Shown piece after piece: positions 5,153 to 42,819 of a DNA stretch of 64,000 nucleotides. The translations under genes were made by a program, and so were the position numbers. Origin of the DNA: Paratinospora sagittata (taxonomy: Eukaryota; Streptophyta; Magnoliopsida; Ranunculales; Menispermaceae); the NCBI GenBank assembly GCA_035771175.1, contig CM069612.1, forward strand, positions 24,906,987 through 24,970,986, given 5' to 3'. The notes under the pieces were generated by a model. That model saw only the letters and a program-made list of their open reading frames with translations, was not told the DNA's origin and did not search any database. How positions within the stretch are numbered: position 1 is the first letter of the stretch; every line of letters starts with the position of its first letter.

Positions 5153-5596
5153 TCATGGATGGTTTGGTTCAAAGGACTTGAGCTCCTTGACATCTCCAGA
5201 TAAGCTCTCATACACAACAACATTATAAGGCAGAGGACCAATGTGCTTTTCAAAGCAGGCATAAATTCGTAATTTATAATTGTATCCAACCACCTCGTCG
5301 ACATTAGCTAATATTATAGATTTGGATATTAGATTATTCTGTCGGTAAACCTTCTGGCGCCAAGCTCTTGCTACCCTTGTGAAGTTTAGATGTGGATAAT
5401 TGTGTTGCTCGTTCTTCTCATTCACGGCACACTTTCCGAGATCTATCACATGATCTGTTACGTCTATGGGTTCATACTCCCCCTGCTTTATATCATCAGA
5501 TACCGATCCATCACCAGCGAAAGCCACATTAAAGAACAAAGGAAAAAGAAGAAGAAGAATAGTATGGATAATGAACTGTTCAACTTGAACCTTCAT
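5153..5596 (-). CDS. Monellin-like/cystatin-fold secreted protein, copy 1
   Basis: A 147-residue single-exon gene. The start ATG at 5594-5596 is shared with its paralogues. Residues 1-27 are a classic signal peptide (hydrophobic run rich in Leu/Phe ending NVAFA), so the product should enter the secretory pathway. The mature part has a cystatin helix motif LGKCAVNEKN (53-62), a QxVxG-position loop DEVVG (100-104) followed by YNYKLRIYA, and a final strand KELKSF. The IDV at 44-46 and the helix and GY.Y.L.IYA pattern resemble monellin more than papain-inhibiting phytocystatins. The Gln of QxVxG is Asp and the C-terminal Pro-Trp is absent (VVYES), so classical cysteine-protease inhibition is doubtful. 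Function is unknown; fold assignment is fairly secure. Confidence 0.8.
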   Translation of the reverse strand: MKVQVEQFIIHTILLLLFPLFFNVAFAGDGSVSDDIKQGEYEPIDVTDHVIDLGKCAVNEKNEQHNYPHLNFTRVARAWRQKVYRQNNLISKSIILANVDEVVGYNYKLRIYACFEKHIGPLPYNVVVYESLSGDVKELKSFEPNHP

Positions 5597-5825
5597 AATA
5601 TTAATGGAAGGATTGATATGACAAGGAGTTCAATAGCTAAACTGATACTCTGTATATAAAAACACGTGAATTTTGTACGTGGTAGATAGAAATTTATAAA
5701 TGTGGCCATGATTGGTCCCATATACCTTTGGATTATCAAGAAGAGTACAGTGATTACATTATCATTTGAAATGTGGCCATGAGTGGACTGACTGTATATC
5801 TATTTGAAGTGTTTGTATTGTATTT
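5597..5825 (-). promoter_or_regulatory. Promoter of monellin-like copy 1
   Basis: Carries the family's upstream blocks. CACGTG (G-box core) is at about 5663-5668, with GTACGTGG beyond it and two ATGTGGCCATGA blocks. The segment between the initiation region and the G-box, which holds the usual TATA (CTATAAATT) in the paralogues, is deleted here. A TATATA at about 5653-5658 sits in its place, closer to the G-box than in any other copy. Light, ABA or stress control is possible from the G-box alone but is not shown. Confidence 0.5.
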
Positions 5826-5840
5826 AGGCACGCATAAGGG

Positions 5841-5842
<2 letters not shown>

Positions 5843-5884
<42 letters not shown>
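5843..5884. repeat. (TA)n microsatellite
   Basis: About 20 uninterrupted TA units, directly visible, at the distal end of the copy 1 promoter. Confidence 0.95.
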
Positions 5885-5887
<3 letters not shown>

Positions 5888-6565
5888 GTATTTGTTAACT
5901 TTACGGATAACCTTTAAAAAAAATAAGTTGATAGAAATATTAGATTGTGTTTGGTTAGTGATTCAAAAATTGAATCTAATAAAAAAAATAAAAAATTTAG
6001 AAAACAATGTTTCATTGTTTTCTTTACAAAAAGTAAAAAAATTCTTTTCAAATTTTCTTCAACTAAATAGATTTTTTGTGTTTTCAAATTTTGGAATACC
6101 AAAACCTGAATCTGGATATTAAATCAAACGCACCCTTAGTTTTTTATAAATATTTTTATTTTTCTTACCTCTAATTAAAGCAAAGATATAATCTATGTAG
6201 GAATAAGCAATATTTTTTTTTACTTGTTATATTAGAACATAAACTTCTACAATTTGAAGTTCTTTAATTTCAAAGTAAGAGCAAAAGTTAAATTGATACA
6301 AGGTTCTACATTCTTTGCTCTTTTCTTTTTCAAATACAACTTTAGCCATTTCACTTTGTTTCATTTATTTTGTTCTCTTGAATCCTAATAGTGCTGTGTT
6401 ATGATCAATAACTAGGTCGGTATGTGTTAATTGAATGACTTGTTTCAAGAAATTAATTGAAGAGAAGAAGCTCCTTACAAGCTTACATGATACAATTTTT
6501 GTGAGAAAAAAACTACTGAGATTGGAAATGGATAAAAAATTATGTTCAAATATAAATGAATGAAT
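5885..6565. other. AT-rich intergenic, no gene
   Basis: Contains another partial copy of the family's distal upstream block (GTTAACTTTAC, later AAACTTCTACAATT.GAAGTTC near 6240-6265). The open frames here are AT-rich and opposite-strand mirror images of each other, with no domain. The copia LTR begins at 6566. Confidence 0.4.
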
Positions 6566-7119
6566 TGTTGGGAAAAACATCCAAAACTCTCCAATATCAC
6601 ATATTCAATAAAGAAAAGAATAATAGATATCAACACCCACAACTCAAAGATATAAGTGGAAAAACCTCAAAATAAAGAAAAAAATCACACGCAAAAAATA
6701 ATCCACTATCAATTAATAAGTACCTCAAAGGAATTAAATACCTCAAGTACTTCTATACCAGATAGTATACAAATTTGAGACTTTGGTAAAAAAGAATAAC
6801 AGAAAGAGAATACTCAAGAGAAAACTAGAACTCCAACTACGTCACATGCACAAGTTCTAAACCTTATACTCTTTCACAAAGTTTCCAAGGACCAAGATTC
6901 TCCTTCTTCTAGATCTCACTCACTAATTTGGATGATCAATAAACTATGAGAGACTTCCTATATATAGTTTTTCTAGCCATAATAGTTAGAAACCGTGACC
7001 AACAAGGATTCCTCATTCTACACTAACATAGTTTCCTTATTCAAATATTACTAGATCATAAAATACATGTTTCATGTTCTAAAACAATAAGGAATTCATG
7101 TTTGAGCCAAAATCTAACA
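6566..7119 (-). repeat. copia-1 3' LTR
   Basis: On the + strand it begins TGTTGGGAAAAA and ends ..CTAACA; it is the 3' LTR of the minus-strand element. On the minus strand the bases just before it (7120 rightward) read CGCCAAGGTGAAGAT, the polypurine tract. It is similar throughout to 8593-9177, with scattered substitutions and a missing segment near 7075 where the other copy repeats ACTAGATCATAAAA. Confidence 0.75.
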
Positions 7120-8578
7120 ATCTTCACCTTGGCGAAAACACCAATGCTTCATCTCATGTTTTTGCCCCTTTGTCCTCATGGGTCATGATACTCAATGCTG
7201 AGAATCACCCAAGTCCAAGTCATCCTTGACCTTGCCAACTGGAACCCACTTTCTGATCAACCTTTTAGACTCTGATCTTGCTCCACGTGCTAATCCTGGT
7301 TTGCCCATCAACACATACAAGTTTCTGTCTTGAACACTTTTCATGATCATAGTAAACTTCTAGAAAACTTCCAATACTTCATCTTTACCAGAGTACCAAT
7401 AACCTTCAGAATCTAACTTGGAAAGAGAAATCAGATTATGAATAAAACTCAATACATGTCGAACATTATGAAGTGTAATAACGTGTCCGTAAAACAACTT
7501 CACTTGAACTTCACCCACTCCCATTATTGGCCTTTGGGAGCCATCAGCCATCGACACAAACTCACCACCAATACACCTTGCATACTTGCAAAACCATGCC
7601 TTGTGTGGCCCCGGTATCAATCACCCAATTGCGCTTATGTTGTAAATTTCCACCATTAACAGATGTCATAAGAACAAAATCACCGTTGAACTCGACAACA
7701 TTCAGATTGGTAACGTTGTCATCGACATTCTTATTTGCCGACTTGGAGTTATTTGTCGAACTTGCTCCTTTTTCTTTCCAATTCTTGCAATCTTTCCTTA
7801 GGTGCCCTGATTGCCCAAACCCCCAACATGTCCCCTTAACAAACTTTTTAGGATTTCCCTTCTTTCTACCTACTCCTAATGCCCCTTAACAAACTTTTTA
7901 GGATTTCCCTTCTTTCTACCTACTCCTAATGCTGAACCCTCAGAAGAATCATTAATAGCACCTTTTAATCTTCTCTCTTTAGAACGTAGCGTACTAGTAA
8001 CTTCTTTAAGATTCACAGTATCCTTCCCATACATTAACGTACTCTGAAGATGCTTATAGGAAGCTAGAAGGGACCAAATCAGTCGAAGTGCCTGATTTTC
8101 ATCCTCAATTTTTACTCCAACTGCTTCTAACTTAGAAACAATACCATTGAGGACGTTAAGGTGATCAACTATTGTTGTACCTTCTTCCATCCGCAACGTG
8201 TGAAACTTTTCTTTAAGATACAACCGATTTGAGAGACTCTTTGTCATATGCAAGCTTTCGAACTTCTTCTAAAGATCTTTTGCTATAAAATTGCAGTTGA
8301 TATTCCCAAGGACATTTTTTTGCAAGACAAAGCCGTATCATACTAGCAACTCTCATATCCAACTCTTGCAAATCCTCATCACTTTCTTTACCTTTTTCTA
8401 TCAAAGCCTTTCGCAGCCCAGACTGAATTAATAAATCTTTGACTTGCAATTGCCACAAGCCAAAATTTATTTTTTCATCAAACTTTTTCACATCAAACTT
8501 CAAGTTGGAAGAATAATTCGACATCTCTAAATCTCTTCACACTTTAATGAATCAATTGAAATACAACTCGAACCGTAG
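7120..8578 (-). pseudogene. copia-1 gag-protease remnant
   Basis: Read right to left. 8213-8524 encodes the start of a copia gag (FDEKINFGLWQLQVKDLL, IRLCLAKK). 7876-8253 continues gag (SNRLYLKEKF, LLASY). Then come a CCHC knuckle (CWGFGQSGHLRKDC, about 7793-7835) and 7360-7620 with protease/pre-integrase text (MADGSQ, HNVRHVLSFIHNLISLSKLD). The pieces lie in different frames. A 50-bp tandem duplication breaks the frame just before the knuckle. Nothing of pol after the pre-integrase region remains. No function is expected. Confidence 0.8.
7832..7931. repeat. Perfect 50-bp tandem duplication
   Basis: Two identical 50-bp units (7832-7881, 7882-7931) inside the copia-1 gag region, each starting CCCCTTAACAAAC. 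Fifty is not a multiple of three, so the duplication shifts the gag frame. The perfect identity implies a recent slip or repair event. Confidence 0.9.
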
Positions 8579-8592
8579 CTCTGACACCAATT

Positions 8593-9177
8593 TGTTGGGA
8601 AAAAATACCCAAAACCCTCAAATATTACAGATTCAATAAAGAAAAGAACAATGGAGATCAACACCCACTACTCAAAGATATGCGTGAAAAAGCCCCAAAA
8701 TTAGGAAAAAAAACCACGCTAAAAAACAATCCACTTTCAATTAATAAGTACCTCAGAGGAATTAAACACCTCAAGTACTTCTACACCAGATAATACACAA
8801 ATTTGAGACTTTGGTAAATAAGAATAACAAAAAGAGAATACTCAAGAGAAAACTAGAACTCCAGTCGCGTCACCCTCACAAGTTCTAAACTCTACACTCT
8901 TTCACAAAGCTTCCATGGACCAAACTTCACCTTCTTCAAGATCTCACTCATTAGTTGCGATGATCAATAAAAAATGAGGGACCTCCTATATATAGACTTT
9001 ATGGCCATAATAGTTAGAAACCGTGACCAACAAGGATTCCTCATTCTACACTAACATGGTTTCCTTATTCAAATACAACTAGATCATAAAACACTTATCC
9101 ATAAAACACTAGATCATAAAATACATGTTTCATGTTCTAAAACAATAAGGAATTCATGTTTGAGCCAAAATCCAACA
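8593..9177 (-). repeat. copia-1 5' LTR
   Basis: On the + strand it begins TGTTGGGAAAAAA and ends ..TCCAACA. The adjacent left bases 8579-8590 read CTCTGACACCAA, the complement of a tRNA-Met primer site, which fixes this as the 5' LTR of a minus-strand element. Confidence 0.75.
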
Positions 9178-9232
9178 ATCTTCACCTTGGCGAAAACACC
9201 AATGTTTCATCTCATGTTTTTGCCCCTTTGCA
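9178..9232. repeat. Stray copy of copia-1 interior
   Basis: These 55 bases repeat 7120-7173 almost exactly (ATCTTCACCTTGGCGAAAAC...). They should lie inside the element but here lie outside the right LTR. At 9233 the text switches to gypsy integrase. This is the footprint of unequal recombination between LTRs of two copia-1 copies, or of a tandem LTR-interior-LTR-interior array later truncated. Confidence 0.75.
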
Positions 9233-10098
9233 GAGGGAGCTCGGCACCAGACTAGATCTCAGTACCGCTTTTCACCCTCAAATGGATGGCCAATCCATGA
9301 GGTTGATATCGATTTTGGAAGATATGCTTCGAGCTTGTGTCCTTAAGTATAGTGATAACTGAGAGGAGTACATACATCTGTGTGAGTTCGCGTACAACAA
9401 CAACTATCAGTCCAGTATTGGCATGGCTCCCTTTGAGGCGTTGTATGACCGACCCTATAGATCTCCAGTCTATTGGACTGAGGTAGGGGATATTGCAGTG
9501 ATGGGACCTGAGTTTGTACAAGAACACACAGAGAAGATTAAGCGGATCAAGCATAATATGGAGGTAGCTCAAGACAGACATAAGAGTTACGCTAATGTTA
9601 AGCGGAAGGTCGTAGAGTTTGAGGTGGGTAACCAAGTTTTGTTGAAGGTCTCACCTCAGAAGGGCCAGACCAAATTTGGGATAAAAGGAAAGCTCGCTCC
9701 GAGATTTATTAGGCCGTTTGAGGTTTTAGAACGAATTGGTCCCGTCGCTTTCTGATTAGCTTTGCCACCTCAGTTAGCAGCAGTCCACAATGTCTTTCAT
9801 GTGTCGATGTTGAGAGTGTACATGAGTGATTTTGATCACGTCCTGGACTGGAGAAACATTGAGCTGAGGCAAGATGAGACTTACGATGAGGAACTTGTTC
9901 AGATACTTGACCGAAAGGTACAAAGGTTGCGTAATTGGGAAATTCCTATGGTCAAGGTGAGATGACAGTTCCATGGTGAGGAGCAGGTTACTTGGGAGCG
10001 TGAGGACTACATGATGGAGCACTTCGCTGAGTTCATGGGCTTAGGCAATTTCTTAACCTTAAACTTCAATGACGAAGTTCTTTCTAAGGTGGGTGTGA
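9233..10098 (+). pseudogene. Ty3/gypsy integrase C-terminal remnant (gypsy-1)
   Basis: Frames at 9233-9362, 9423-9755 and 9762-9965 give the end of a gypsy integrase. Seen in order are the catalytic-core end (RLDLSTAFHPQMDGQS, LEDMLRACVL), the Tyr/Asn-rich segment EFAYNNNYQSSIGMAPFEAL, the GPFE-type segment RPFEVLERIGPVAF, and VHNVFHVSMLRVY with a chromodomain-like tail (TWERED, about 9988). In-frame stops at about 9361, 9754 and 9963 break it. The 5' part of the element is absent. A polypurine tract AAGGTGGG (10086-10093) leads into the 3' LTR. Confidence 0.8.
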
Positions 10099-10860
10099 TG
10101 TGAAGCCCCGAAAATTATTTCATCTAGCCCATAGCCCAATTGCATTTTATCCAAATTTTATATGTTTGCCTTGATATGTTTGGTGTTTGTTTGATGGTTA
10201 TTTAATGTTTGAATATTTGATGCTTGATAATGTATATAAATGTGTGCATTATAAATTATATATGAGTCATGTTAAATTAAAGTATAATACACGTGTTATT
10301 ATTTATGCTTGTACCCATTAAACCATGAATTGATATGGGTTATGATTAATTGAATAAAATGATTAATAAGAATGAAAATTTGGTGTATTAAATGGATTGG
10401 ACATTAAAATACATTGAAGCATGAGATTGATTAAAATACATGTGGTCGGAATGGATAGTATGAGACCAACACATGTGAAGTTGATGCATGAGAATGAACA
10501 AGTTTCTCATGCCCCATTTCTCTTCTCTAACACGTGTCAAGTTGGTGCATAATAGCACATGTAAAGTTGATGCATGAGAGTTGACAAGTGTCACATATTC
10601 TATTTCTCTTCTCCAACACCTGTCAAGTTGGTGCATGAGAATGGAATAAGAATGATTTTTTTTTCAAGCTGAAGCGATGAAATACATCTTTTCGAAATAC
10701 TTGAACGCAGAGAAGGGATAGCGATTACAGTAGGGTGATTTTCCATGAGATTTATTTTTATAATAGAATGCGTGTTTTGATGAGATGATTCATGCATGAC
10801 TGATTGACTACTGATTTTTATAATTTTCAAATATTGTTATATGCATATATGTTTACTATT
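10099..10860 (+). repeat. gypsy-1 3' LTR
   Basis: Starts TGTGAAGCCCCGAAAATT just after the polypurine tract. Its first 230 bp match 1-228 in inverted orientation. The right end is not clear to me; I place it near 10860, where the text becomes plain AT-rich. The internal repeats at 10455-10645 lie inside it. Confidence 0.55.
10455..10645. repeat. Imperfect tandem repeats in gypsy-1 LTR
   Basis: A unit containing ACACGTGTCAAGTTGGTGCAT or a variant, followed by CATGAGA..GA and CATTTCTCTTCT, occurs about three times at roughly 55- and 110-bp spacing. Each unit carries an ACANGTG core resembling an E-box or G-box. Confidence 0.65.
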
Positions 10861-11340
10861 TTGGTGTATTATCTCGAATGATTAATTTTGATTTGATAAG
10901 AATAGTTATAATTACTATTTTCAACAAGTAAAATGATATATTAATTCATTAGACTCTCAAACAACTAAGACACTTCCTATTTAACAAACACTTAAAATTA
11001 CACACTTTTTATTTGAATTCTAGCTAGTGCCAAATGGTTGGTCCATTATAATGAAATTATCGCCTACTGTTCAAATCTACAATGTCATCTTTAAAAAGAA
11101 AAAAAAAAAAAATCTATATTATCATAATGATAATGATAATGAGAATGTACTCTCCTGATAATGTAACGTCACGGGATGGCTCACGATAATAATAATGACC
11201 TAATGTTCAAACCTGTAATATCATAACGATCGCAATAATGTACTCCCTTGATAATCTAACGCCACGTAGACCACTAATGCCCACATTTTTTTCACGTGTT
11301 TCTAGTTAATAAAAAAGACGGCTCCTACAAGTGAACACCA
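10861..11340. other. AT-rich intergenic, no gene
   Basis: No gene. An imperfect duplication of about 100 bp (near 11120-11180 and 11205-11275, sharing AATGTACTC.C.TGATAAT.TAACG.CACG) is visible. Confidence 0.4.
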
Positions 11341-11450
11341 AAACTACTATTCCTATCTAGCAAGGTTCAACTATAAATTGGGAGTACTATAACTTTAGCT
11401 ATCATCAGAACAAAACAACCGTATCATATCATATATATTGTTACCTTAAT
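11341..11450 (+). promoter_or_regulatory. Orphan promoter of a lost + strand monellin-like gene
   Basis: CAAGG.TCAACTATAAATTG then GGAGTACTA (TATA at about 11372) is nearly the same as the promoter of the intact + strand gene (27861-27890). It is followed by the same leader style (TAGCTAT...ACAACCGTATCATATCATATATA). No cystatin-fold coding sequence follows; gypsy-2 sequence starts instead. Confidence 0.65.
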
Positions 11451-11679
11451 TTCAGAAAGAAGAAGAAAGAAACATGAAAGAGAAATTTTCATTACTGCCG
11501 AAAAATGATTCTACAGGGCTTTTCAAAGTATTGCAAGCTATTACAAACTAACCTTTCAACTAACCAAAAAAAAAAAAAAACCTCTAATAATATTCTAACA
11601 GAATACCTAACTGCTATAGCTAACTATCTCTAACTATCTATAGTAACAGGTACTAACTAACTAATCTTACGTAGTTGAC

Positions 11680-11990
11680 CTCAGTCTGACCGCCCGTTTG
11701 TGGATGATGAACACTGCTGAAATTAAGCTTTGTACTCACCATCTTCCATAAACTTTGCCAAAAATAGCTAATGAAACGTCTGTCACAATCTAATACAATA
11801 GAAGGAGGGAGCCCATGGAGATCATAAATCTCCCAAAAAAAATAGGACTACAACATTGACCTCATCTGTAATCTTCTTACAAGTGATGAAATATGTCATC
11901 TTTGAGAAACGATCAACAACCACAAAAATAGAATCATGACTCATCTGCATCCCCGGAAGACCAAGTACAAAATCCATGCTAATATCTGTC
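11680..11990 (-). pseudogene. gypsy-2 integrase core remnant
   Basis: The minus-strand frame holds [12 protein letters not shown] and [16 protein letters not shown], the first catalytic-Asp region of a Ty3 integrase (usual motif VDRFSKM.HF). Out-of-frame text for the second Asp region (LDCDRRF) and HHPQTGGQTE follows to about 11690. Frames shift near 11830. Confidence 0.7.
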
Positions 11991-12412
11991 ACACCCCAGT
12001 ACACAGCACACCGCAGTGTCTAGTACCTCCGGAATGTGATGGGTACCTCATACCGAGCGTATCCCAGCCATTATATACAACAAAATATTGTCACATCCCA
12101 GTACATAACACACCGCAGCGACTAGTACCCCCGGGATCATTTGTCCATACTATTCACTCATGAATAGTGCAGGGCCTCCCCCAAATTCTAACTCACAATC
12201 TCATAAGGAGAGGTTGCGAGTTCGACTTAGGGGGAGGCCCCCTTTGTGGAAAAAAAACCTCGAGGATACTAGACGTTGTGTGCGGGCTGTGTATTGAGGT
12301 ATAACAATATTATGTGGTACTATGGCTAGGGTACGCTCTGTATGAAGTACCTATCACATCCCGGGGTATTAGACACTGCGGTGTACTGTGTACTGGGGTG
12401 TGACAATATCTG
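11990..12412. mobile_element. Foldback element inside gypsy-2 integrase
   Basis: The left end (about 11989) reads GTCACACCCCAGTACACAGC.. and the right end reads ..CTGTGTACTGGGGTGTGAC, long inverted repeats of at least 40 bp including GCAGTGTCTAGTACC or its complement. Flanking copies of AATATCT (before and after) look like the target duplication. The interior has a second half-copy of the end (12090-12140), a perfect stem GGGCCTCCCCC...GGGGGAGGCCC (about 12172-12242) and a GGTTGCGAGTTCGAC box. It has no coding capacity. Confidence 0.7.
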
Positions 12413-12990: not shown

Positions 12991-13042
12991 ATGCCAATGT
13001 CGAATAGCTTGGACCATTACATAAAACTCCACATCGTATGTA

Positions 13043-14255: not shown

Positions 14256-14271
14256 AAGGTTGGTAGCATGA

Positions 14272-17649: not shown

Positions 17650-18134
17650 ATAGATATAAGATTTAGGGGTGAAATCGGGTTGAATTTTTGCCTTCTAACA
17701 TATTCGACAGATGAGGTCAGGTGATAGCGGGTTAGACCCAATGTCATCTAGTTTAAGGTTTAGTCGGGTCGATCGGGTTAATCAGGTTCATCCTCATTAA
17801 ATAGTCTAATTTTTTAAAAACTTAATAACTATTATTTAATAATAAAATATGTTAAATTATTATATATTTAACTTATTATACTATTATTTAAATTTTAAAA
17901 AATATTTTTTTAAAAGAATTTATATATGAACTAAACTATTTTTAAATTTAACTTATAAAAATAAAAATAAATTTATATATATATATATATATAAATTTAA
18001 AAAAATTTCAGATCAAATTTAGTTGAATTATTAATAAATTAATCTGATTAATTTAATATATTAATTAAATTCAACCCGACCGACTCAAAATGATCGAATT
18101 TAGGGTCTGAATCAGATTAGGTCGGATTGTTCAC
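17650..18134. mobile_element. MITE-like element with GGTCGGGT-type ends
   Basis: The left end region reads TAGGGGTGAAATCGGGTTGAAT with GTCGGGTCGATCGGGTTAATC further in. The right end has AACCCGACCGACTC and AGGTCGGATTGTTCACC. Inverted GGGTTGAAT / ATTCAACCC arms of this kind are typical of small plant TIR elements. No target duplication is established. A partial counterpart is at 24240-24565. Confidence 0.4.
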
Positions 18135-18239
18135 CAGCCGGACTGAACTTTTATTTTGGTTTTTTCTGGAAGCCGCAAGACTGAACTTGAATGAATTGGT
18201 TTTGTTGTCATTGTAGGCGAGACTTGCTGAGATACGGAT

Positions 18240-18470
18240 AGAATTTGTGGTGCCCCTTGTATGCTTGGGCTGTCTATGTTATAAAGAGACACGTGAATTT
18301 CGTACGTTGTTGATAGAAAACTAAAAATTGTGGCCATTGGTAGTGGTCCATGTGGCGTTAGATTATCGAGAGAGTACATTATCATGATTGCGCATCTACT
18401 TAAAAATCACGTGGGCAGTTGATATTGGATTTGACGTGAAGATAATATTTAGTTTGTGTGGCAACAATAT
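18240..18470 (+). promoter_or_regulatory. Orphan promoter block (monellin-like family)
   Basis: GAATTTGTGGTGCCC, AGACACGTGAATTTCGTACGTTGT, TGTGGCCATTGGTAGTG.TCCATGTGGCGTTAGATTATC and ATCACGTGGGCAGTTGATATTGG occur in the order found upstream of the + strand gene at 27955. The TATA and gene are absent. Two CACGTG-type cores are seen. Confidence 0.5.
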
Positions 18471-19560
18471 AAATTAGTATTATATCCCAAAGGTGATTTA
18501 AATGGAAATGTTACCCATAGTATTTTTTTTTTATTTTCTTTTTTTTTACAATTGAACATGATATTATTAGATACCTCCTCAATTTGTTTTTGAAATTTCA
18601 TCAAACTTTTTGAAAAGTTTTCTAAAATTATTTCTCGAAAGAACTCATTTTAGTTGAAAAAGTATTACTATTGATAGATTTAATTTTCAAAAGCAATTCA
18701 AATGATGTGGAAAATGGCTCAAATAATTCTTATAAATTTAAAAATAATTTTAGATATTTTCTCAAATTTCAAATAATTTTTAAAAATTATTTCGTTAAGA
18801 TTAACACACTTATTAGTAAAAAATATTAATATTGAGTTTTTAATTTATTTCAACTAATTTTAAATTATTAATAAGGTGTGGCCACATACAATGAAAATTC
18901 TTAGGTTAAATAGTTGCTATGTACATAAAAATAATTTTATTAAATTACAAATATGTACCTTCTTTATTTAAAATGCTTATTTCATAAAATTATTAGTTTC
19001 TGAAGTGATTTTGAGAAAGTAATTTTTTAAAATTATTTCGTTAAGAACATCACTTATTAGTAAAAATATTAATAATGAGCTTTTAATTTATTTCAACTTA
19101 TTTTAAATTATTAATAAGGTTTGGTCAGATACTGTGTAAATTTTTTAGGCTAAATAGTTACTATGTACATCAAAATAATTTTATTAAATTACAAATATGT
19201 ACCTTCATTATTTAAAATCTATATTTCATAAAATTATTAGTTTCTGAAGTGATTTTGAGAAAGAAATTTCACACCTGGTGATAGTGTGGTTTGGGTGGGT
19301 GTCAACATAAACATATAACAGTACATAAAAATTACTGATTTTCCAAATAAAATAGCATAAAATATTGAATCATCTCATCAAAAAACATATTCAATTATAA
19401 AATAATTATTTTTTACAAGAAATCACCATTACCTCAATTATTATCCCTCACGTCTATTCATGTGTTTCAACAAGATGATCTAAACTTGAAAATGAGACTT
19501 ATTCTTATCATGAGTAAAGAGTAATTACATCAATTCAATAAGCTGTTGTTGCCGCTTGAT
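18471..19560. other. AT-rich filler in the duplication, no gene
   Basis: Non-coding. It contains an internal duplication: TTATTTCGTTAAGA..A.CACTTATTAGTAAAAATATTAAT through CATAAAATTATTAGTTTCTGAAGTGATTTTGAGAAAG occurs twice (about 18785-19020 and 19030-19265). Confidence 0.6.
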
Positions 19561-19827
19561 CTACAACCAGCGAACAACCCAATTAAATGATATGTGTTTT
19601 GATGATACCCGGAGGCGCGCAGTTAATTGTTTATAATATATTATTTGTTTTTAAAAAAAAATAAAAAAAAATAAATAAATAAAAGCTCGTATGTGAGCAA
19701 CTTTTATTTATGGCATCATACAAAACGAGAACATACATAATAACTACCAACACAACATTAATTAGCAACTTTGCATATATGTATGCACGTCCTCATACAA
19801 ACGTTGATGAGTACCTTATTATAATAT

Positions 19828-20316
19828 TTAAACAAAGAAGTCCATAAATGACCGACCACCTTGTTCTATTTCCGTTTGAACAAAATACAGAAGCCTCTTT
19901 TCATTTGTAGATGTGTTCTCATACACAAAAGCCACATAAGGTAGAGGCGCCATCCTTTGACGGTGGGCATAAATAAGTAACATATAATAGTATCCACCCA
20001 CCTCGTCGACTTCAGCCAATATTGTAGATTTGGACAGTTGGTTATTCAGTTGGTAAGCCTCCACTCGTCCCGCGAATCCTACCCAATCGAAGATTAGGAA
20101 GTATGGTAAATCGCCTTGCTTGTTTTTCTCATCCACGGCATACATTGCGAGAGATCTCACATGATCGGTTATGATTATTGGTACATACCCACTCTCCTTT
20201 ATGTCATCAAATACCGATCCATGATCACCAGCGCCGAAAGCCACATTGAAGAACAAAGTAAAAAAAAGAAGAAGAAGAACAGCAGAGATCATGAACTGAT
20301 GAACGTGACCTTTCAT
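19828..20316 (-). CDS. Monellin-like/cystatin-fold secreted protein, copy 2
   Basis: 162 residues, single exon, ATG at 20314-20316. It has a signal peptide of about 28 residues (ILLLLFF-type core, ending NVAFG). The mature part has the helix LAMYAVDEKN (56-65) and the loop DEVGG (104-108) followed by YYYMLLIYA, then LPYVAFVYEN and a last strand region RLLYF. The Gln of QxVxG is Asp and the Pro-Trp hairpin is missing. The last dozen or so residues (EIEQGGRSFMDFFV region) are translated from what is the stop codon and start of the 3' UTR in the paralogues, so the C-terminus is extended. The IDI/IDV tripeptide of copies 1 and 5 is III here. An open but diverging copy; expression unknown. Confidence 0.75.
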   Translation of the reverse strand: MKGHVHQFMISAVLLLLFFTLFFNVAFGAGDHGSVFDDIKESGYVPIIITDHVRSLAMYAVDEKNKQGDLPYFLIFDWVGFAGRVEAYQLNNQLSKSTILAEVDEVGGYYYMLLIYAHRQRMAPLPYVAFVYENTSTNEKRLLYFVQTEIEQGGRSFMDFFV

Positions 20317-20590
20317 ATTAATGGATGGATTGATATGACCTGTTGTTTTTATTTTTATTTGACGATGAGTTCAATAGCTAAACTGATACCTCTAATTTAT
20401 AGTTGATGTTTGATAGACATATGAGAGTGATGTTTAAGTAACATTTTTTTGATGTTAAAAGTTGGACAACTTTGTGTTATATGTGATTTGAAGTAATCTA
20501 ACCATTCTTAAAATATTTAAAAATAATAGATGTGGTGCCCACTTGTACAATCTGTCTTTGGTTATATGAAAACACGTAAATTTTGTACTT
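20317..20590 (-). promoter_or_regulatory. Promoter of monellin-like copy 2
   Basis: On the minus strand, AACTATAAATTAGA (TATA at about 20394-20403) lies about 80 bp before the ATG. Further upstream are GTGGTGCCCACTTGTAC and AAAACACGTAAATTTTGTAC, where the G-box CACGTG of the paralogues has changed to CACGTA. The upstream ATGTGGCCATGA blocks are missing because a truncated gene copy follows directly. Confidence 0.6.
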
Positions 20591-20663
20591 TTGGTCAAGA
20601 GTCTTTTACTGGCGAGTTTATTTTTTGTAAGTAAAAGTATGTTTTTACCAATGAACTAAAGTT

Positions 20664-20747
20664 ACCAGCGAAAGTCACATTGAAGAACAAAAGAAAAAGA
20701 AGAAGAAGAATAGTAGAGATAATGAACTGATAAACTTGAACTTTCAT
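20664..20747 (-). pseudogene. Monellin-like copy 3: signal peptide only
   Basis: ATG at 20745-20747 starts a signal peptide nearly identical to copies 1 and 5 (ISTILLLLFLLFFNVTFAG). At about 20664 similarity to the family stops and unrelated sequence follows, ending at a stop near 20595. All of the cystatin fold is lost. It could in principle still be a short secreted peptide of about 50 residues, but the tail has no family resemblance. Confidence 0.75.
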
Positions 20748-22195: not shown

Positions 22196-22256
22196 ACTAC
22201 TAGTTAGAATAATAATATTACACAAAGAAACTCATAAATGACCACCTTGTTATTAC

Positions 22257-22996
22257 AATGGTTTGGTCCAAAGGACTTTTTTTTTTTTCCTTTTCTTTTG
22301 TACAAGATTCATTTATATTTCTATATCATCTCTAATCTCGTAGTACATTCTGCCAACAAAGATGATACGTTCTAGAGTACAATGATACACAACAATGGAC
22401 TCTTAGGCTTACAAAGAAAGAAGGCAAAACCCAAGAACAGAGGATATAATCCTCGCAACAAGAGGCTAAAAACATCACAATAAGAAGGTAAAACCCTTTC
22501 AATAAACCCTCGTTATTAGCATAAAAATCCTACTTAGACTACACTAGACACAAACTTAATCAAATCAGGAAAGAAAGCATTTAAGGTCCCTAACATCTCC
22601 CGATAAGCTCTCATACACATAAAAAGTATAAGGCAATTGCTGCTTTTCATTTATAAAGTAGCAAGACAGATGTAATCTATAATTGTATCCAACCACCTCG
22701 TCGAATTCAATCAATATTCTAGATTTGGATAGTAGATAATTCTGTTGCTTAACCACGTCGCATTCAACCCTTGTTACCCTTACAAAGTAAAGGTAAAACC
22801 AATAATCACCTCTCCTGTTTTTCTCATCCACGACATACTTTCCGCGATCATTCACATGATTGGTTATACTTATGATTTCATACACACGGTGCCTTACACC
22901 ATCACATACCGATCCATCATCAACGAAAGCCACATTGAAGAACAAAGGAAAAAGTAGAAGAATAATAGAGATAATGAACTAAACTTGAACTTTTAT
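22257..22996 (-). pseudogene. Monellin-like copy 4, disrupted
   Basis: The coding text is recognisable from 22996 to about 22575 and, after an insertion, at 22278-22257. The ATG of the paralogues reads ATA (22994-22996). A 3-base deletion relative to the paralogues creates TAG in the signal peptide (22979-22981). The remaining frame (22565-22945) keeps the helix (RGKYVVDEKN), DEVVG with YNYRL, and VYESLSGDVRDL. The final codons are separated by about 296 bp of foreign sequence (22279-22574). The mature core has otherwise stayed open, so inactivation may be recent. Confidence 0.8.
22279..22574 (-). mobile_element. Roughly 300-bp insertion in monellin-like copy 4
   Basis: Foreign sequence starting with a T-run (TTTTTTTTTTTCC) that interrupts the last codons of the pseudogene. 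On the minus strand this is a 3' poly-A-like end, as expected for a retroposed SINE-type insertion. No Pol III boxes or target duplication are identified with confidence. Confidence 0.4.
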
Positions 22997-23054
22997 ATTA
23001 ATGGATGGATTGATATGATATGTTTTTTATTTTTGTTTTAATGATGAGTTTGAT

Positions 23055-24220
23055 TGTGACGGCCCACACCCCGGACAGCCATTCCTCATGGATCGGCGTG
23101 CAGAAGTGTCGAGATGGGACACCCGGCGTAGGCATCTACGACCACCTCAAATTATCCAATGAGATGATCGGGACCCTACAAGCCTCAATCAAACTCTCAC
23201 ATAAAATCCCTAAATTTTTGTTTTTGTTTTTATCCACATCAAACCTGATAGACTTAACAATTCAACATCAAAGTCCATATGAATCAACAAGATATAATCT
23301 CTCAAGGCATACCATAAACATAGACCAAAAAGGATGATCCTCCAAAGTATACAAGACAAATACAATGATCATAATAGTCTTCGAATAGAACATACAACCA
23401 TGATCAAAAGTCTCCAATTAAACCCAAAATAGTCTAAGGCAACATGCCTAGAACCATCATAAAATCTAAGTTCAAAGTATATAACCAAATACATCAATCC
23501 AAGGCCACAAGGCCAATATACATCAGCAACCATAATCCCTCTCACCGTCTAGGTTTAACAAATGTTATAGATTACATATATATCAAATTAAGCAAAACAA
23601 TATACATATGTAAATAAATGACATCCATCCATACACATCAAACCTAGACTCACGTCAGGATGTCCCTAACTGCTACAGTGGCAAGCTCTCAAGTGTATGC
23701 TATGTTTTTGCCCTTACCCTTATTAGAAGAACCTGAAAAGAGAGTGAGAGGGTGAGCCAACGGAGCCCAGTGAATAATGTTTAATAGTGCTATCATTTAT
23801 GTATCAATAAAAGTCATATATGTATATGCATGAAATAATTCTCATAAGTATGTAAATCATAAAACACATAATAAAATAAGCATCCACCATTTTCATGTAT
23901 TTCAAATCCATTCATTTTCCATCATCATTTTCCTGTTGTAGAGACCAACATGGCCCTCCCTTATTGGGGTACAACTGACATAGAGATCATTAACTCGTAA
24001 ATGACATGATCCTCCTTTAATTGGGGTATGTCATTTCCTCATTGCCATATCATTTTCCTATTGTAGAGATCAACTTATGATCCTCCCTTAATTGAGGTAC
24101 GGCTGACACAGAAATCATTCACAGCAAGTGCAATGATCCTCCCTTAATTGGGGTATGTCATTTCTACTTCTAGAGACAAGTTAGCTTGGTAATTATTCAA
24201 GCCTTCTAGATACTCTTTAG
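23055..24220 (-). repeat. Probable gypsy solo LTR, minus strand
   Basis: The left edge TGTGACGGCCCACACC (minus-strand ..GGTGTGGGCCGTCACA) looks like an LTR end. The antisense signature GGGTGAGCCAACGG..CCAGTGAATAATG near 23752-23780 matches the sense signatures at 16020 and 35550. No internal coding is present. The right boundary is approximate. It lies between the promoter of copy 4 and the duplicated block at 24240. Confidence 0.45.
23935..24185. repeat. Degenerate tandem repeats with TCCCTTAATTGGGGTA
   Basis: A unit of about 60-130 bp (GTAGAGA.CAAC, then GATCCTCCCTTAATTG.GGTA, then GACA.AGA.ATCATT) occurs three to four times inside the minus-strand LTR-like block. Each unit contains the short palindrome-like TTAATTGGGG. 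Similar repeats (CCCTTGTTAGGAC-type, inverted) occur in the LTRs at 35.2 and 51.7 kb. Confidence 0.65.
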
Positions 24221-24669
24221 GAAGTATTGATAATAAAATAGTTTAATTTTTATAAAACTTAATAACTACTATTTAAGTTTATATTATTAATAAAATATGT
24301 TAAATTATTATGTATTCAACTTATTAAATTATTTTTTAAATTTTAAAAGATGAGATTTTTTTTTTGAAAAACTTATATATGTATAAAATAAATTATTCTT
24401 AAATATGACTTATGAAAATAAAATACATATATATATATATATATATTAAAAATTTTCAGATCTAATTTAGTTGAATTATTAAAAACTTAATCTTTAATAT
24501 ATCGATTAAATTCAATCCAACCCTACTCAAAATAATTGAATTTAGGATCGGATCAGATTTACCACCCTGACTGAACTTTTTTTTTGGTTTTTTTGAAAGC
24601 CACAAGACTGAACTTGAATGAATTGGTATTGTTATCATTGTAGGCGAGACTTGCTTAGACAAGGATAGA

Positions 24670-24960
24670 ATTTGTGGCGCCCCTTGTATGCTTGGGCTGT
24701 CTATCTTATAAAGAGACACGTAAATTTCGTACGTTGTAGATAGAAAACTAAAAATTGTGGCCATTGGTAGTGGTCCATGTGGTGTTAGATTATCGAGAGA
24801 GTACATTATCATGATTGTGCATCTACTTAAAAATTACGTGGGCAGTTGATATTGGATTTGACGAAGGAGTCACTTCCTCATATTTATATTTGTATGGTAT
24901 TTAAGTCTCACTTCAAATAAAGTTAAGAGATATGACCTGAAGATAATAAGTAGTGTGTGT
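24670..24960 (+). promoter_or_regulatory. Orphan promoter block (monellin-like family)
   Basis: Same block order as 18240-18470 and 27585-27830: GAATTTGTGGCGCCCC, AGACACGTAAATTTCGTACGTTG, TGTGGCCATTGGTAGTGGTCC and TTACGTGGGCAGTTGATATTGG, then TTTGTATGGTATTTAAGTCTCACTTCAA. No TATA or gene follows. Confidence 0.5.
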
Positions 24961-26130
24961 GGCAACAATATTATATCCCAAAGGTGATTTAAATGGAAAT
25001 CTTAACCATAGTATTTTTTTTATTTTCTTTTGCCAAAGATTTGTTTTCTTTTTTTACAATTGAACATGATATTATTAGATACCTCCTCAATTTTTTTTTT
25101 TGAAATTTCATCAAACTTTTTGACAAGTTTTCTAAATTTTTTTCTTGAAGAACTCATTTTAGTTGAAAAAGTATTACTATTGATAGATTTATTTTTCAAA
25201 AGCGATTCAAATGATGTGGAAGATGGCTCAAATAATTCTTATAAATTTAAAAATAATTTTAGATATTTTCTAAAATTTCAAATAATTTTTTAAAAATATT
25301 TCGTTAAGATTAACACACTTATTAGTTAAAATATTAATAGAGCTTTTAATTTATTTCAACTAATTTTAAATTACTAATAAGGTGTGGATACAATGAAAAT
25401 TTTTAGGTTAAATATTTACTATGTACATCAAAATAATTTTATTAAATTACAAATATGTACCTTCTTTATTTAAAATGCTTATTTCATAAAATTGTTAGTT
25501 TCTGAAGTAATTTTGAGAAAGTAATTTTTTAAAATTATTTCGTTAAGAACATCACTTATTAGTAAAAATATTAATAACGAGCTTTTAATTTATTTCAACT
25601 TATTTTAAATTATTAATAAGGTTTGGTCAGATACTGTGTAAATCTTTTAGGTTAAATAGTTACTATGTACATCAAAATAATTTTATTAAATTACAAATAT
25701 GTACCTTCATTATTTAAAATCTATATTTCATAAAATTATTAGTTTCTGAAGTGATTTTGAGAAAGAAATTTCATAGTGTGGTTTGGGTGGGTGTGAACAT
25801 AAACATATAACAGTATATAAAAATTACTGATTTTCCACATAAAATATTGAGCCATCTCATCTAAAAACATATTCTATTATAAAATAATTATTTTATACAA
25901 GAAATCACCCTGACCTCAATTATTATCCCTCACGTGTATTCAAGTGCTTCAACAAGATGATCTACACTTGAAAAGAGATTTATTCTAATTATGAGTAGCA
26001 ATTGTCTTGAAAAAAGAAAAATAAAAGAAAGAGTGATTACATCCATCCATTCAACAAGCTGCTGTTGTCCCTTGATCTACAACCAGCGAACAACCCAATT
26101 AAAGGATATGTGTTTTACGATAACCAGAGG
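24961..26130. other. AT-rich filler of duplication, no gene
   Basis: Matches 18471-19600, including the internal repeat ending CATAAAATT.TTAGTTTCTGAAGT.ATTTTGAGAAAG (about 25485-25525 and 25730-25765). The open frame at 25030-25293 is low-complexity. Confidence 0.5.
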
Positions 26131-26428
26131 CAGTTAATTATTGTTGTTTTCTTTTTTCCTTGGTGTACATTTATATTTATATGTTTATAATATATATTCT
26201 TAGCTTTTCAAAAACAAAGAATAAAAAATCAAATCAAACAAATTAGAAGCTCATATGTGAGCACCTTACTATATATATTGCATCAGATAAAACGAGAACA
26301 TGCATAACAACTATCGACACAACATTAATTTTGATTAGCAACTTCACATGCATGCACCCTCATACAAACATTGATGAGAGTAGCTTATTATAATATTTAA
26401 ACAAAGAAGCTCATAAATCACCTCCTTA

Positions 26429-26881
26429 TTATTCCATCATACGGCTGTTGAATGGAACAAACTCCTTAAGCTCCCTGTCATTTCCCAATAAGCTCTCATA
26501 CACAACAGCCACATAAGGCAGAGACCTCATCCTTCCAATGTAGGCATAAATAAGTAATCTATAATCGTATCCGATTACCTCGTTGGCTTCAGCCAATATT
26601 ATAGATTTGGACATTAGGTTATTCGGTTGGTATTCCCTGCGTCCAGCCGATGTTACCCTTTCGAAAAATAGGCGTGGAAAATCGCCTATCTTGTTTTTCT
26701 CATTCACGGCATACTTTGCGAGATCTTTCACATGATCGGTTATGTCTATGGGTACATAATCACTCTGCTGTATATCATCAGATACCGATCCATGATCACC
26801 AGCGAAAGTCACATTGAAGAACAAAGGAAAAAGAAGGAGAAGAATAGCAGAGATAATGGACTGATAAACTTGAACTTTCAT
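26429..26881 (-). CDS. Monellin-like/cystatin-fold secreted protein, copy 5
   Basis: 150 residues, single exon, ATG at 26879-26881. It is the best-preserved member. A signal peptide covers residues 1-27 (ILLLLFPLFFNVTFA). The mature part has VPIDITDH (43-50), the helix LAKYAVNEKN (54-63), KIGDFPRLFFERV (64-76), a conserved spacer SKSIILAEA (91-99), the loop NEVIG (100-104) with YDYRLLIYA, LPYVAVVYES (121-130) and the last strand RELKEF. The IDI, the ENKIG..GRL.F.KV-like text and the GY.Y.L.YA text follow monellin's B and A chains in order. The spacer between them has no counterpart in mature monellin. The inhibitory Gln and Pro-Trp of phytocystatins are absent. Probably secreted; biological role unknown. 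Confidence 0.82.
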   Translation of the reverse strand: MKVQVYQSIISAILLLLFPLFFNVTFAGDHGSVSDDIQQSDYVPIDITDHVKDLAKYAVNEKNKIGDFPRLFFERVTSAGRREYQPNNLMSKSIILAEANEVIGYDYRLLIYAYIGRMRSLPYVAVVYESLLGNDRELKEFVPFNSRMME

Positions 26882-27100
26882 ATTAATGGATGGATTATTA
26901 TGATATGACTGTTTTGTTATGCTGAGGAGGTCAATAACTAAACTGATACTTCCAATTTATAGTTGAAGCTTGATACATAAAAATAGTAGATGTGGTGTCT
27001 TTGGTTATATAAAAACACGTGACTTTTGTACGTGGTTGATAGAAATTAAAAAATGTAGCCATCCCTATACCATTGGATTATCAAGAAGAGTACAATGATT
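26882..27100 (-). promoter_or_regulatory. Promoter of monellin-like copy 5
   Basis: Minus-strand AACTATAAATTGGAAGTATCAG puts a TATA box at about 26953-26962, some 75 bp before the ATG. A G-box CACGTG is at 27014-27019, with GTACGTGG at 27027-27034. The GTGGTGCCCACTTGTAC segment of the paralogues is reduced to GTGGTGTC. The promoter faces away from that of copy 6, giving a head-to-head pair. Confidence 0.65.
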
Positions 27101-27103
27101 ACA

Positions 27104-27142
27104 TTATATATATAATATATAATATATAATATATAATATATA

Positions 27143-27180
<38 letters not shown>
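27104..27180. repeat. (ATATAAT)n minisatellite and (TA)n
   Basis: Seven or so ATATAAT units followed by an uninterrupted TA run, directly visible between the head-to-head genes. Confidence 0.9.
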
Positions 27181-27584
27181 GTATAGGTGGTATTGTTAAC
27201 TTTGCGAATAACCTTTAAATATTAGTTTATTATAAATATTTTTATTTTTATTTTCTCTAATTGAAGCAAAGATATTTTTATTTTTAAATAATAATTTATG
27301 TGGTGGGCCTCATATGAAAAAAGAAGAAGAAGAATAAAACAAGAGGTCCGTCTCATATGTCTAAAAATAAAACAAAAATAATAATAAATAATGCACCGAT
27401 AGAGAACGCGTTAATCTCTCTTTCGGCGTTGGATTAAAATATAAAAAAGTTTTTAAATAATAAAATAAAATCCTCGCAAAAAATCTTTATTTAAATAAGA
27501 TGGAACCATCAGAGTGATTAGAAATAGTGAATTATATATTACTAAATATCCTATATCATCCTTGCTTATAGATAAGAATAGAAT
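27181..27584. other. AT-rich intergenic, no gene
   Basis: No gene. AT-rich with short purine runs (AAGAAGAAGAAGAATAAAA, 27320-27339). Lies between the two head-to-head promoters. Confidence 0.4.
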
Positions 27585-27954
27585 TTGTGGTGCCCACGTC
27601 TATGATTGAGCTGTATTCTTTTATGAGACACGTGAATTTCTTACGTTGTGGATAGGCACTAAAAGTTGTGGCCATTCGTAGTGCGCCATGTGTCGTTAGA
27701 TTATCAACAGAGTACATTATCTTGAATGCATATCTACTTAAAAATCACGTGGGCTGCTGATATTGGATTTCGGCAAGTAGTCCACTTCTTGATATTTATT
27801 TTTGTATGGTATTTAAGTCTCACTTCAACAAAAATTTTAGTTGAGATTTATTCTTGGCAGCAAGGCTCAACTATAAATTGGGAGTACTAGTTTTGCTATT
27901 AAACTCACAATAACCATATCGTATCATATATATCAATCCATCGTATCGATTACG
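27585..27954 (+). promoter_or_regulatory. Promoter of monellin-like copy 6
   Basis: TATA box CTATAAATTGGGAG at 27871-27884, about 80 bp before the ATG. Upstream is the block series GAATTTGTGGTGCCCAC, AGACACGTGAATTTC, TGTGGCCATTCGTAG, ATCACGTGGGCTGCTGATATTGG and TTTAAGTCTCACTTCAAC. Two CACGTG cores are present. This same series without TATA and gene recurs at 17.2, 18.3 and 24.7 kb. Confidence 0.65.
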
Positions 27955-28383
27955 ATGAAGCCTCAAGTTCAGTTCTTTATATCTGCTCTTCTTCTTCTTA
28001 ACCTTTCTTTGTTGTTCAATGTGGCTTTCGCTCGAGATATAGAGCAGGGTGGGTATAAACCCGCACTCATAACGGATCATGTGATGGATCTCGCGAAGTT
28101 TGCAGTGAATGAGCACAACAAGAAAGGCGGTCCACACCTATTCTTCTCAGGTATAAGAAGGGCCGAACGCGAGGAACTTTACCAACGCAATAACCTAGTG
28201 TTCAAATTCCCAATATTGGCTGAACTTGACCAAGTGGTGATTGCATACAATTATAGATTAATTATTGCTGCATACATTGGAAGAATGCTCGACAGATATT
28301 ATGAGGCTATTGTGTATGACAACTTTTCTAAAAATTTCAGTGAGCTTAAGTCTTTTAAGCTACTCGAGGATGGTATGATGTAA
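27955..28383 (+). CDS. Monellin-like/cystatin-fold secreted protein, copy 6
   Basis: 142 residues, single exon, the only intact + strand copy. Signal peptide 1-26 (ISALLLLNLSLLFNVAFA). This member is the closest to true phytocystatins: a Gly-Gly pair (QGGYKP, 32-33), the helix LAKFAVNEHN (46-55) matching the plant LARFAV.EHN signature, and QVV at 93-95 with Gln kept. However, the loop reads QVVIA, so the final Gly of QxVxG is missing. YYEAIVYDN replaces the Trp-containing hairpin. Last strand ELKSFK (130-135). It could be the family's least derived member. Inhibition of papain-like proteases is possible but not supported by an intact loop. Confidence 0.82.
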   Translation: MKPQVQFFISALLLLNLSLLFNVAFARDIEQGGYKPALITDHVMDLAKFAVNEHNKKGGPHLFFSGIRRAEREELYQRNNLVFKFPILAELDQVVIAYNYRLIIAAYIGRMLDRYYEAIVYDNFSKNFSELKSFKLLEDGMM

Positions 28384-28600
28384 TAATAAGTTAGTCACTT
28401 ATGAGTTTCTTTCTGTAATATTATAATAAGGTCCTCGTCGATGTTAGTATGAGGGTGGATGCATGTGGTGCGCAGCTAATCAAAATGTTTTGTTGTTAGC
28501 TGTTATGTATGTGATCATTTTGTATATATGATGTAATAGTAAGGTGCTCGTGTATGAGCTTCTACTTTGTTTTTATTATTTTTCATTTTTTGTTTTTAAT
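28384..28600 (+). other. 3' UTR of copy 6
   Basis: Conserved with the 3' flanks of the minus-strand copies: ACTTATGAGTTTCTTT.TGTAATATTATAATAAGG, GATGTTAGTATGAGGGTGGATGCATG, then GTAATAGTAAGGTGCTCGTGTATGAGCTTCTA. Conservation outside the coding part shows that whole transcription units were duplicated. Confidence 0.6.
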
Positions 28601-29345
28601 AGCAAAAAACAACACCAATTAACAGTTGGATCTACAATCTCTAATTCTTTATTTCTCATAAATTCTATTGTATTATAACCTACTATATAGTGTACTTATA
28701 ATCACCAATCACAATTCCTAAACAAGTTTGTGTTCATGAGAAGAGTTGAGGAAGAGTGAATTTAAGGGTTTGGTGATTTTGGATTGGAGTTTTGGGGATT
28801 TTGGCTCCTAAGGTACGAATTCTTACTTAAATTCTTCATATTTCTGCCTTCTTTGATGTTTCCTAGATTGGGAATGCATTTTTGATGACGTGTGTACTGG
28901 ATCATCGTTTGGATTGGGGGTTTAAGATTGGAAAACCCAGATTGTGAGGATTTGAAGTTGAATTCCCAGATTTGTGATTGTTCTCCTCTGTTTTATTGGT
29001 GAATTCATGAAGTCGTTGGGTTTTGTTGTGAGGTTAGAATTTGGGTTTGCATGTGGCCATTAATGGTGGTCGCCGGTCATGAATGGTGTATTTGGAGTCC
29101 TAATTCTATTATAAATGGTTTTTTGTTTTTATGAGTTTTGAATGAAAATATGAGAGATTGGAGTTGAGAATTGAGATTAGGGACGTTGGCAACCTATGGG
29201 GTTTTACTGGGATTTTGAATTTTTTTTCATGGACGTTTTGTAATTAATCAGAGGATGTGATTTATGTTATTTCAGGACATTGCATTGAATTGGTTCAAAT
29301 GGGATTATATAAGCTTGATTGTTAACCAAGTGGACCGGGTATGAG
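28601..29345. other. Unassigned, possibly copia-2 LTR/leader
   Basis: No coding sequence. Text such as GGTTTGGTGATTTTGGATTGGAG and GGGGATTTTGGCTCC is repetitive in G and T. It directly precedes the gag start of copia-2 and may be its LTR and leader, but no second LTR is present to confirm this. Confidence 0.35.
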
Positions 29346-30740
29346 TATTTCTCACTTTTCACACAAGATCTCGATCAAGTTGAATAGTGATAATTTTTTG
29401 TTGTGGAAGCAACAAAAATTCTTGCAGCAATTTGAGGAAATAAGTTGCTGCATTTTCTTGAAGTCGATTCTGCACCAAATAAGTTCTCTCACAAGAAGAT
29501 GAGAGAATTCGAAGATACAATCCAGAGTTCTCAAATTGGGAGTAGCAAGATCAGCTCCTGATGTCGTGGTTATTGTCTTCAATGATTGAAGTCTTCTGAC
29601 GAGGATGGTTGGATGTGAAAATTCAGCACAAATCTAGTCGAATCTTGAACAATATTTTTCATCTCGGATCTGTGCCAAGATCTAACAGTTCAAGAAGAAA
29701 TTACAGAATACTAAAAAAAGGTTCTCTCTCTGTTGATTCCTATCTTTTGAAAATAAAGAATTGTAGATATACTTGCCTCAGTTGGTTACTTTCTTTCCCC
29801 CAAAGATCATATTGATGCAATCTTTGATGGCCTTCCTGAAGAGTATTACACTTTTGTTGTCTGTTTCATCAAGATCAAATGAATACAACTGTTGTTGAAA
29901 TAGAATCACTACTCCTAGCACAGAAAGTTGGGATAGAGAAACATGAAAAGCAGCTAGATGCTAGTCTCCAGGTGAATCTCACCAATGCAAGACCACAATT
30001 CTATAATCCTCGAGGTTCTTTTGCTCCCAATCGTGGAATGCAGTTCAATAGAGGCAGAGGACAGTTCCCCAATCCTTTCGTGGCTCAAATCAGCACAGAG
30101 GTGGCTTCACTCAACATTGGCAACAAAATCCTAAACCACAATGTCAGATCTGTGGTAAATCTGGCCATGGTGCTTTTCAATGTTTTTACAGATTTGATAA
30201 ATCTTTTTCTACTTTCTCTCCATCGACTTCATCTACACCAGTTCAAGCTATGTTAAGACAGAACTATGAACTGGATTTCCCAACTGCTATGGAAGTTGAA
30301 GGACCTTCCAACATCAATCCAGCTACTGCTTGGGACACCAATTGGTATCCTGATTTCGGTGCTATAATTCATGTTACACATGAAGCTGGCAACCTGATGA
30401 TGAGTAATACTATACTGGTCCTGAGAAAGTTCTTGTAGGTGATGGAACAGTTTGTCCATTGAACATGTTGGTCATTCCTTATTTCCTTCTCTACATTCTT
30501 CTAAATTATTGTCTCTGAATAATCTATTACATGTTCCCAACATTACCAAGAACTTGATCAGTGTGTCTCAATTTGCTAAGGGTAATCACATTTATTTTGA
30601 GTTTCATCCTCAACATTGTTATGTGAAGGATCAGGTCACACATTAGATTTTACTGTCGGGGAAGCTTAGCAATGGGCTCTGTGTTTGATAAGTCACAGAT
30701 CCAGCTGCTGTCACAATCAAGTTCTGCTTCTCAAGCTTCA
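29346..30740 (+). pseudogene. copia-2 gag/protease/pre-integrase remnant
   Basis: Broken frames give, in order: the gag start (ISIKLNSDNFLLWKQQ, about 29367), gag spacer with NPRGSF and NRGMQFNRGRGQFP, a CCHC knuckle (CQICGKSGHGAFQC, about 30139-30180), protease region text (WYPDFGAIIHVTHEAGNL, where the usual DSGA reads DFGA), and pre-integrase text LLHVPNITKNLISVSQFAKG (30510-30575). Several frameshifts and stops occur. It stops at about 30740 where the 3' flank of another monellin-like gene resumes. This is an older element of a different copia lineage from copia-3 to copia-5. Confidence 0.75.
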
Positions 30741-31035
30741 AGTTTTGTAATTGGTGTACGTTGTTTTGTTTTCTCTTTGATGTACATTTATATTAATCTG
30801 TATATAATATATTCCTCTTCTTTGCTATTAAAAAACAAAAATAATAATCAAACAAAGTAGAAGCTCATACATGCTTACCTTACTATTCATCATATATATA
30901 TACAAAACGAGAGCATACATAAGAACTAACAACAAAACACTTTAATTAGCTACGTACAACATGCGTCCACCTTCATATTAGCATTGATGAGAGTGCCTTA
31001 TTATAATTTTTGATGAGAGTGCCTTATTATAATAT

Positions 31036-31191
31036 TTAAACAAAGGAGCTCATAATTGACCGCCTTGTTATTCCATCATACGGCTGTAGAGTGGAACAAA
31101 CTACAAGATCACCGGCGAAAGCCACGTTGAAGAACAAAGGAAAAAGAAGAAGAATAGTAGAGATAATGAACTGATGAACTTGACCTTTCAT
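31036..31191 (-). pseudogene. Monellin-like copy 7, middle deleted
   Basis: ATG at 31189-31191 begins a signal peptide (ISTILLLFPLFFNVAFAGD). The text then jumps directly to the family's C-terminal and stop region (the nucleotides around CCATCATACGGCTGTAGAGTGG match the end of copy 5). The whole cystatin fold between them, about 300 bp, is deleted. Text downstream (30741-31035) is the conserved 3' flank. Confidence 0.8.
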
Positions 31192-42817: not shown

Positions 42818-42819
42818 AT

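Follow-up and report, generated by a model that had tools for sequence, protein, structure and literature searches.

Within a 64,000-nucleotide stretch of contig CM069612.1 of Paratinospora sagittata (Menispermaceae), hereafter the window, positions 5153-31191 hold cystatin-fold genes of a non-canonical type that form a genuine tandem cluster spread over both strands. We propose, with a probability of roughly 0.68, that these genes belong to a cystatin-fold lineage that is derived from CYS5-type phytocystatins and has monellin as a member or as its sister. Judged by sequence comparison, the array members are the closest relatives of monellin found in the present analysis, and the kinship is well supported but short of proven. 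Monellin reportedly was assigned the cystatin fold by Murzin in 1993, and its source, the serendipity berry Dioscoreophyllum cumminsii, belongs to the Menispermaceae. According to a 2025 paper, which used the nucleotide record JQ282905, neither a gene model for monellin nor a homologue in other plants is known, and the likeness between monellin and cystatins is there termed convergent (PMC12458679). A literature search that left most subscription journals and preprints uncovered found no monellin-related gene cluster and, among the Dioscoreophyllum titles listed, none on a genome. The cluster would make the origin of monellin testable; its copies span phytocystatin-like to monellin-like forms and supply intermediates, promoters and a gene order with the B part before the A part in one frame.

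The five copies that retain a mature domain match one another in tblastn searches with E-values from 1e-13 to 1e-43, far beyond chance, and a tblastn search of the copies against the window shows one signal-peptide/5′ region common to seven loci. These comprise four intact single-exon open reading frames, one start-less copy with an open mature frame and two signal-peptide relics. The intact genes are 5153 (5153-5596, minus strand, 147 amino acids, a signal peptide followed by a cystatin-fold domain), 19828 (19828-20316, minus strand, 162 amino acids), 26429 (26429-26881, minus strand, 150 amino acids, the best monellin match of the array) and 27955 (27955-28383, on the opposite, plus strand, 142 amino acids, the least derived copy). 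Copy 22565 (22565-22978, minus strand) has decayed: ATA stands where the start codon ATG would be and its signal peptide contains a stop, but its mature-domain frame is open. A first-pass annotation had described seven members sharing a signal peptide, a helix and a GY.Y.L.YA strand. The signal peptide is indeed common to all seven, but the helix and strand are confined to five (5153, 19828, 22565, 26429 and 27955), with the strand reading GYxYxL in four and AYNYRL in 27955. Its intact proteins correspond to four of the seven loci, the decayed copies it mentioned are present as 22565 and the relics at 20649-20747 and 31105-31191, and the alignment bears out its finding of IDV/IDI before the helix in 5153 and 26429 and of NKIGDFPRLFFERV after the helix in 26429.

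The likeness to monellin (PDB 3mon and 1fa3; PF09200) includes the order of elements. The start GEYEPIDV of gene 5153 corresponds to GEWEIIDI in monellin, AVNEKNKIG of 26429 to AVDEENKIG, and the array strand GYDYRLLIYA to GYEYQLYVYA; monellin, like the array, lacks both QxVxG and the second-loop Trp and has a lengthened L1 hairpin. In PDB sequence searches, 26429 (E 4.7e-6) and 5153 (E 1.1e-5) match monellin and no phytocystatin, monellin being the sole related PDB match of 5153, and the match of 19828 is weak (E 0.21). There are also differences from monellin: identity is 39% over 70 residues for 26429 and 35% over 75 for 5153, the array encodes a single chain with 9-12 extra residues before the L1 Gly and an acidic stretch behind the signal peptide, and the β4-β5 part differs. 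Against a database containing plant proteins, profile A1 found no relative up to E 1 among 2175 candidates sharing 5-residue words and the array consensus found none among 16 candidates, a filter that can miss divergent relatives, monellin included.

A second line of evidence is the lengthened L1 (β2-β3) hairpin, the same hairpin that, according to one paper, holds the QxVxG hinge of cystatins and loop 1 of MNEI (PMC6349918). In 26429 it comprises residues 77-103, TSAGRREYQPNNLMSKSIILAEANEVI (26573-26653, minus strand), with equivalents in the other four copies. If only the residues that separate the helix Asn from the L1 Gly (Ala in 27955) are counted, the spacing is 40-42 residues in the array, 30-31 in monellin and 21 in phytocystatins, so that monellin holds about half of the array's lengthening. 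The phytocystatin value, which like the other comparison counts rests on the 120 proteins listed among 1316 plant matches to profile A5, holds for nearly all of them: 112 proteins yield 128 matches, 124 of which have it; one of the rest is 24 and three are 14, where the pattern catches early, and eight proteins are unmatched. The shared lengthening is evidence on the relation of array and monellin that is separate from the tree columns. Monellin is split into its two chains within this hairpin. In the MAFFT alignment, the end of chain B falls at an Asn-Asn pair of the array and chain A begins at the β3 strand, leaving 9-10 array columns unpaired. The Asn-Asn is present in the hairpin of four of the five copies and, again in four of five, x-x-S-K-S-x-I-L-x-E/N follows it up to the β3 strand. 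Since chain B of PDB 3mon ends in ENE, its end lies within one residue of that Asn.

In every one of the seven trees, each of 22-31 rows, monellin is nested within the array clade, with support of 97/93 and 99/99 in two analyses and by topology elsewhere. The predicted structure is too weak to be decisive (mean predicted local distance difference test score 49.5), and with it Foldseek ranks monellin first (E 0.018), the VIA-align rows being tied. Two two-domain cystatins are of note. P0016 has a GEYKPI start, and the end of its first domain, RKLIYFKPVPVPGPEP, recalls RKLLRFNGPVPPP of monellin; it is monellin's best phytocystatin match, yet the two are not grouped in the 31-row tree. Domain 1 of P0019, from Stephania cephalantha (Menispermaceae), is without the second-loop Trp and reads VYEGLKGQRTLKYF, resembling VYESLSGDVKELKSF of the array. 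As a pointer to a Menispermaceae origin of the array it was dropped, since it adjoins the array in a 24-row tree (86/77) but not in the 31-row tree.

PF16845 matches all five mature domains (E 3.4e-15 to 9.4e-4), two of which pass the curated cut-off; scores range from 56.6 bits for 27955 to 19.9 bits for 22565, compared with 82 and 89 bits for two ordinary phytocystatins and 14.8 bits for monellin. PF00031 (Cystatin) matches both of these phytocystatins and none of the five array copies up to E 10. The inhibitor motifs named in PMC12458679 include QxVxG in the first hairpin loop, [A,P]-W in the second and the helix motif [LVI][AGT][RKE][FY][AS][VI]x[EDQV][HYFQ]N. QxVxG is kept in none of the five copies, where the positions read NEVIG, DEVVG, DEVGG, DEVVG and QVVIA, and neither is [AP]W. 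The helix motif occurs in full in 27955 (LAKFAVNEHN), with 26429, like monellin, missing one position. By eye in the alignment, the N-terminal Gly of the wedge is present in 5153, 19828 and 27955 and missing in 26429 and 22565. Because both loop motifs are lost throughout, the helix motif is complete in one copy of five and the wedge Gly present in three, the array proteins are unlikely to inhibit papain-like proteases in the canonical manner. The array reads best as part of a fast-evolving and probably non-inhibitory cystatin lineage, with monellin as a member. The loss of the papain wedge with retention of the family match would also suit proteins that now inhibit another protease class, their relation to monellin being incidental, and there is precedent in the squash aspartic proteinase inhibitor (SQAPI), described as a cystatin that was co-opted for a role other than inhibiting papain (PMC2784779). 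Such a role is a tentative possibility and is compatible with a monellin-related lineage. However, ordinary phytocystatins match PF16845 as well, so the SQAPI name of this model carries no information on inhibition of aspartic proteases, and beyond the model no specific similarity to SQAPI (PDB 2kxg) is seen, Foldseek giving E 6.6 from the weak structure.

Several results weigh against a shared origin with monellin. No copy reaches the cut-off of the PF09200 Monellin model (the best, 26429, scores 19.3 bits versus 23.6, E 0.001). The branch to MNEI is very long (3.73), so that its placement may be a long-branch artefact, and approximately unbiased (AU) tests do not reject trees in which MNEI lies elsewhere than in the array (p 0.33) or groups with P0016 (p 0.17 and 0.19), oryzacystatin (OC)-type cystatins (p 0.085) or CYS5-type cystatins (p 0.062). 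Monellin groups with the array apart from phytocystatins in every tree, but the AU tests leave alternatives standing. In the alignment, phytocystatin P0060 is 35% identical to monellin, compared with 33% for 5153 and 32% for 26429; at two columns MNEI has the phytocystatin majority residue that is lost from the array, and a phytocystatin query weakly finds two engineered monellins (E 0.82 and 1.2). Copies 19828 and 27955 resemble monellin little in any specific way; the latter is closer to ordinary CYS5-type phytocystatins, and its PDB search retrieves phytocystatins (E 1.3e-7) and not monellin. The annotation's reading, a closer likeness to monellin than to classical phytocystatins, is partly supported: monellin is the nearest sequence of solved structure for 26429 and 5153, but not for 27955. 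Finally, the ratio of nonsynonymous to synonymous substitution rates (dN/dS) among the copies is near 1, in an analysis without the power to tell relaxed from diversifying selection.

A rival account of these observations is a cluster of ordinary CYS5-type phytocystatins, some of its copies in decay, in which the monellin likeness is a convergence of two fast-evolving non-inhibitory branches. The match of PF16845 to all five copies and to ordinary phytocystatins alike, the clearly CYS5-like 27955, the weak constraint suggested by dN/dS and the failure of the AU tests to reject monellin outside the array all fit such a cluster. The resemblance to CYS5-type phytocystatins (P0024, an Arabidopsis hybrid, and P0025 from Actinidia; PF16845) includes the signal peptide and an NYRL strand and, in 27955, a GGYKP start and the helix motif. 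The differences from these phytocystatins are the loss of QxVxG and the [AP]W loop from every copy, the failure of PF00031 to match any of them, and 19-21 extra residues before the L1 Gly. We consider convergence rather unlikely.

The hairpin insert might also be an in-frame intron, the mature loop being short and the shared lengthening illusory, but we regard this as very improbable: GT at the start of the insert and AG at its end, about 81 nucleotides apart, are each kept in at least four of the five copies (by eye, each is displaced by one base in 27955), yet no GT-before-AG pair occupies the same columns in all five, and the sole indel inside the insert is one whole codon. Two further points make splicing unlikely: the resulting hairpin would be some eight residues shorter than in the aligned phytocystatins, and monellin, known as a protein, retains about half of the lengthening. 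CYS5-type genes are not known to contain introns. Clusters I1 and I2 are described as consisting mostly of intron-less genes (PMC12458679).

In the monellin-related lineage that we favor, CYS5-type phytocystatins would have given rise, through tandem and segmental duplication, to secreted single-exon cystatin-fold genes that shed QxVxG and the second-loop Trp, the wedge that binds papain, and acquired the long β2-β3 hairpin. Up to a site within that hairpin the sequence would correspond to chain B of monellin, and beyond that site to chain A; the B-then-A order stands in one open reading frame in the array, and both chains may come from one precursor that is cut or trimmed in the hairpin, which gives a testable account of the two-chain state. 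The proteins may have taken on a changed function in defence or storage, either extracellular or vacuolar, with selection being relaxed or diversifying. A bolder and doubtful extension is that the array is the very gene family of monellin's origin, its members being single-chain precursors from which a hairpin segment of about 10 residues is excised to give two-chain B/A proteins in the plant, and that taste receptors may be targets of other members. Excision between Asn-Asn and β3 might be the work of an asparaginyl endopeptidase and, if this were true, the unusual two chains of monellin would be a processing habit of the whole family.

The remaining features record the growth and decay of the array. 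The relic at 20649-20747 (minus strand) retains the signal-peptide coding part alone. That at 31105-31191 (minus strand) has its signal peptide fused straight to a 3′ flank (30760-31102) matching 26143-26463, which indicates deletion of the mature domain. Promoter relics lie at 1750-2151 (minus strand, with no recognisable gene), so that the family extends beyond the start at 5153 given by the first-pass annotation, and at 11297-11438 (plus strand, a promoter/5′ region inverted relative to the promoters of minus-strand copies); together they suggest that the family was once larger. Genes 19828 and 26429 are partners in a segmental duplication with units at 17796-20415 and 24233-26975, respectively. 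The spacers of these units (18175-19481 and 24602-25963) are 93-100% identical in 100-column bins, compared with 73-89% for the neighboring genes, which points to a spacer that was converted or transposed recently. Upstream of the seven loci, TATAAAT lies at -80 to -90 from the ATG in four, including the relic at 20649-20747 (-90), and at -102 in gene 5153; the relic at 31105-31191 has TATAAAA at -95, and copy 22565 has no such motif. TATAAAW occurs in 6.6% of random 70-nucleotide stretches of the region, and the four TATAAAT are homologous rather than independent.

The window is otherwise plant-like DNA, with a G+C content of 25-44% in 4-kb steps and remains of copia- and gypsy-type elements. 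A copia polyprotein lies at 41681-45171, and two inverted copia-type retroelements occupy 47525-58837, with arms at 48276-49360 and 56893-57977 that are 95% complementary. At 45811-46821 (plus strand) is a G-type lectin receptor ectodomain fragment with B_lectin, S_locus_glycop and PAN_2 domains.
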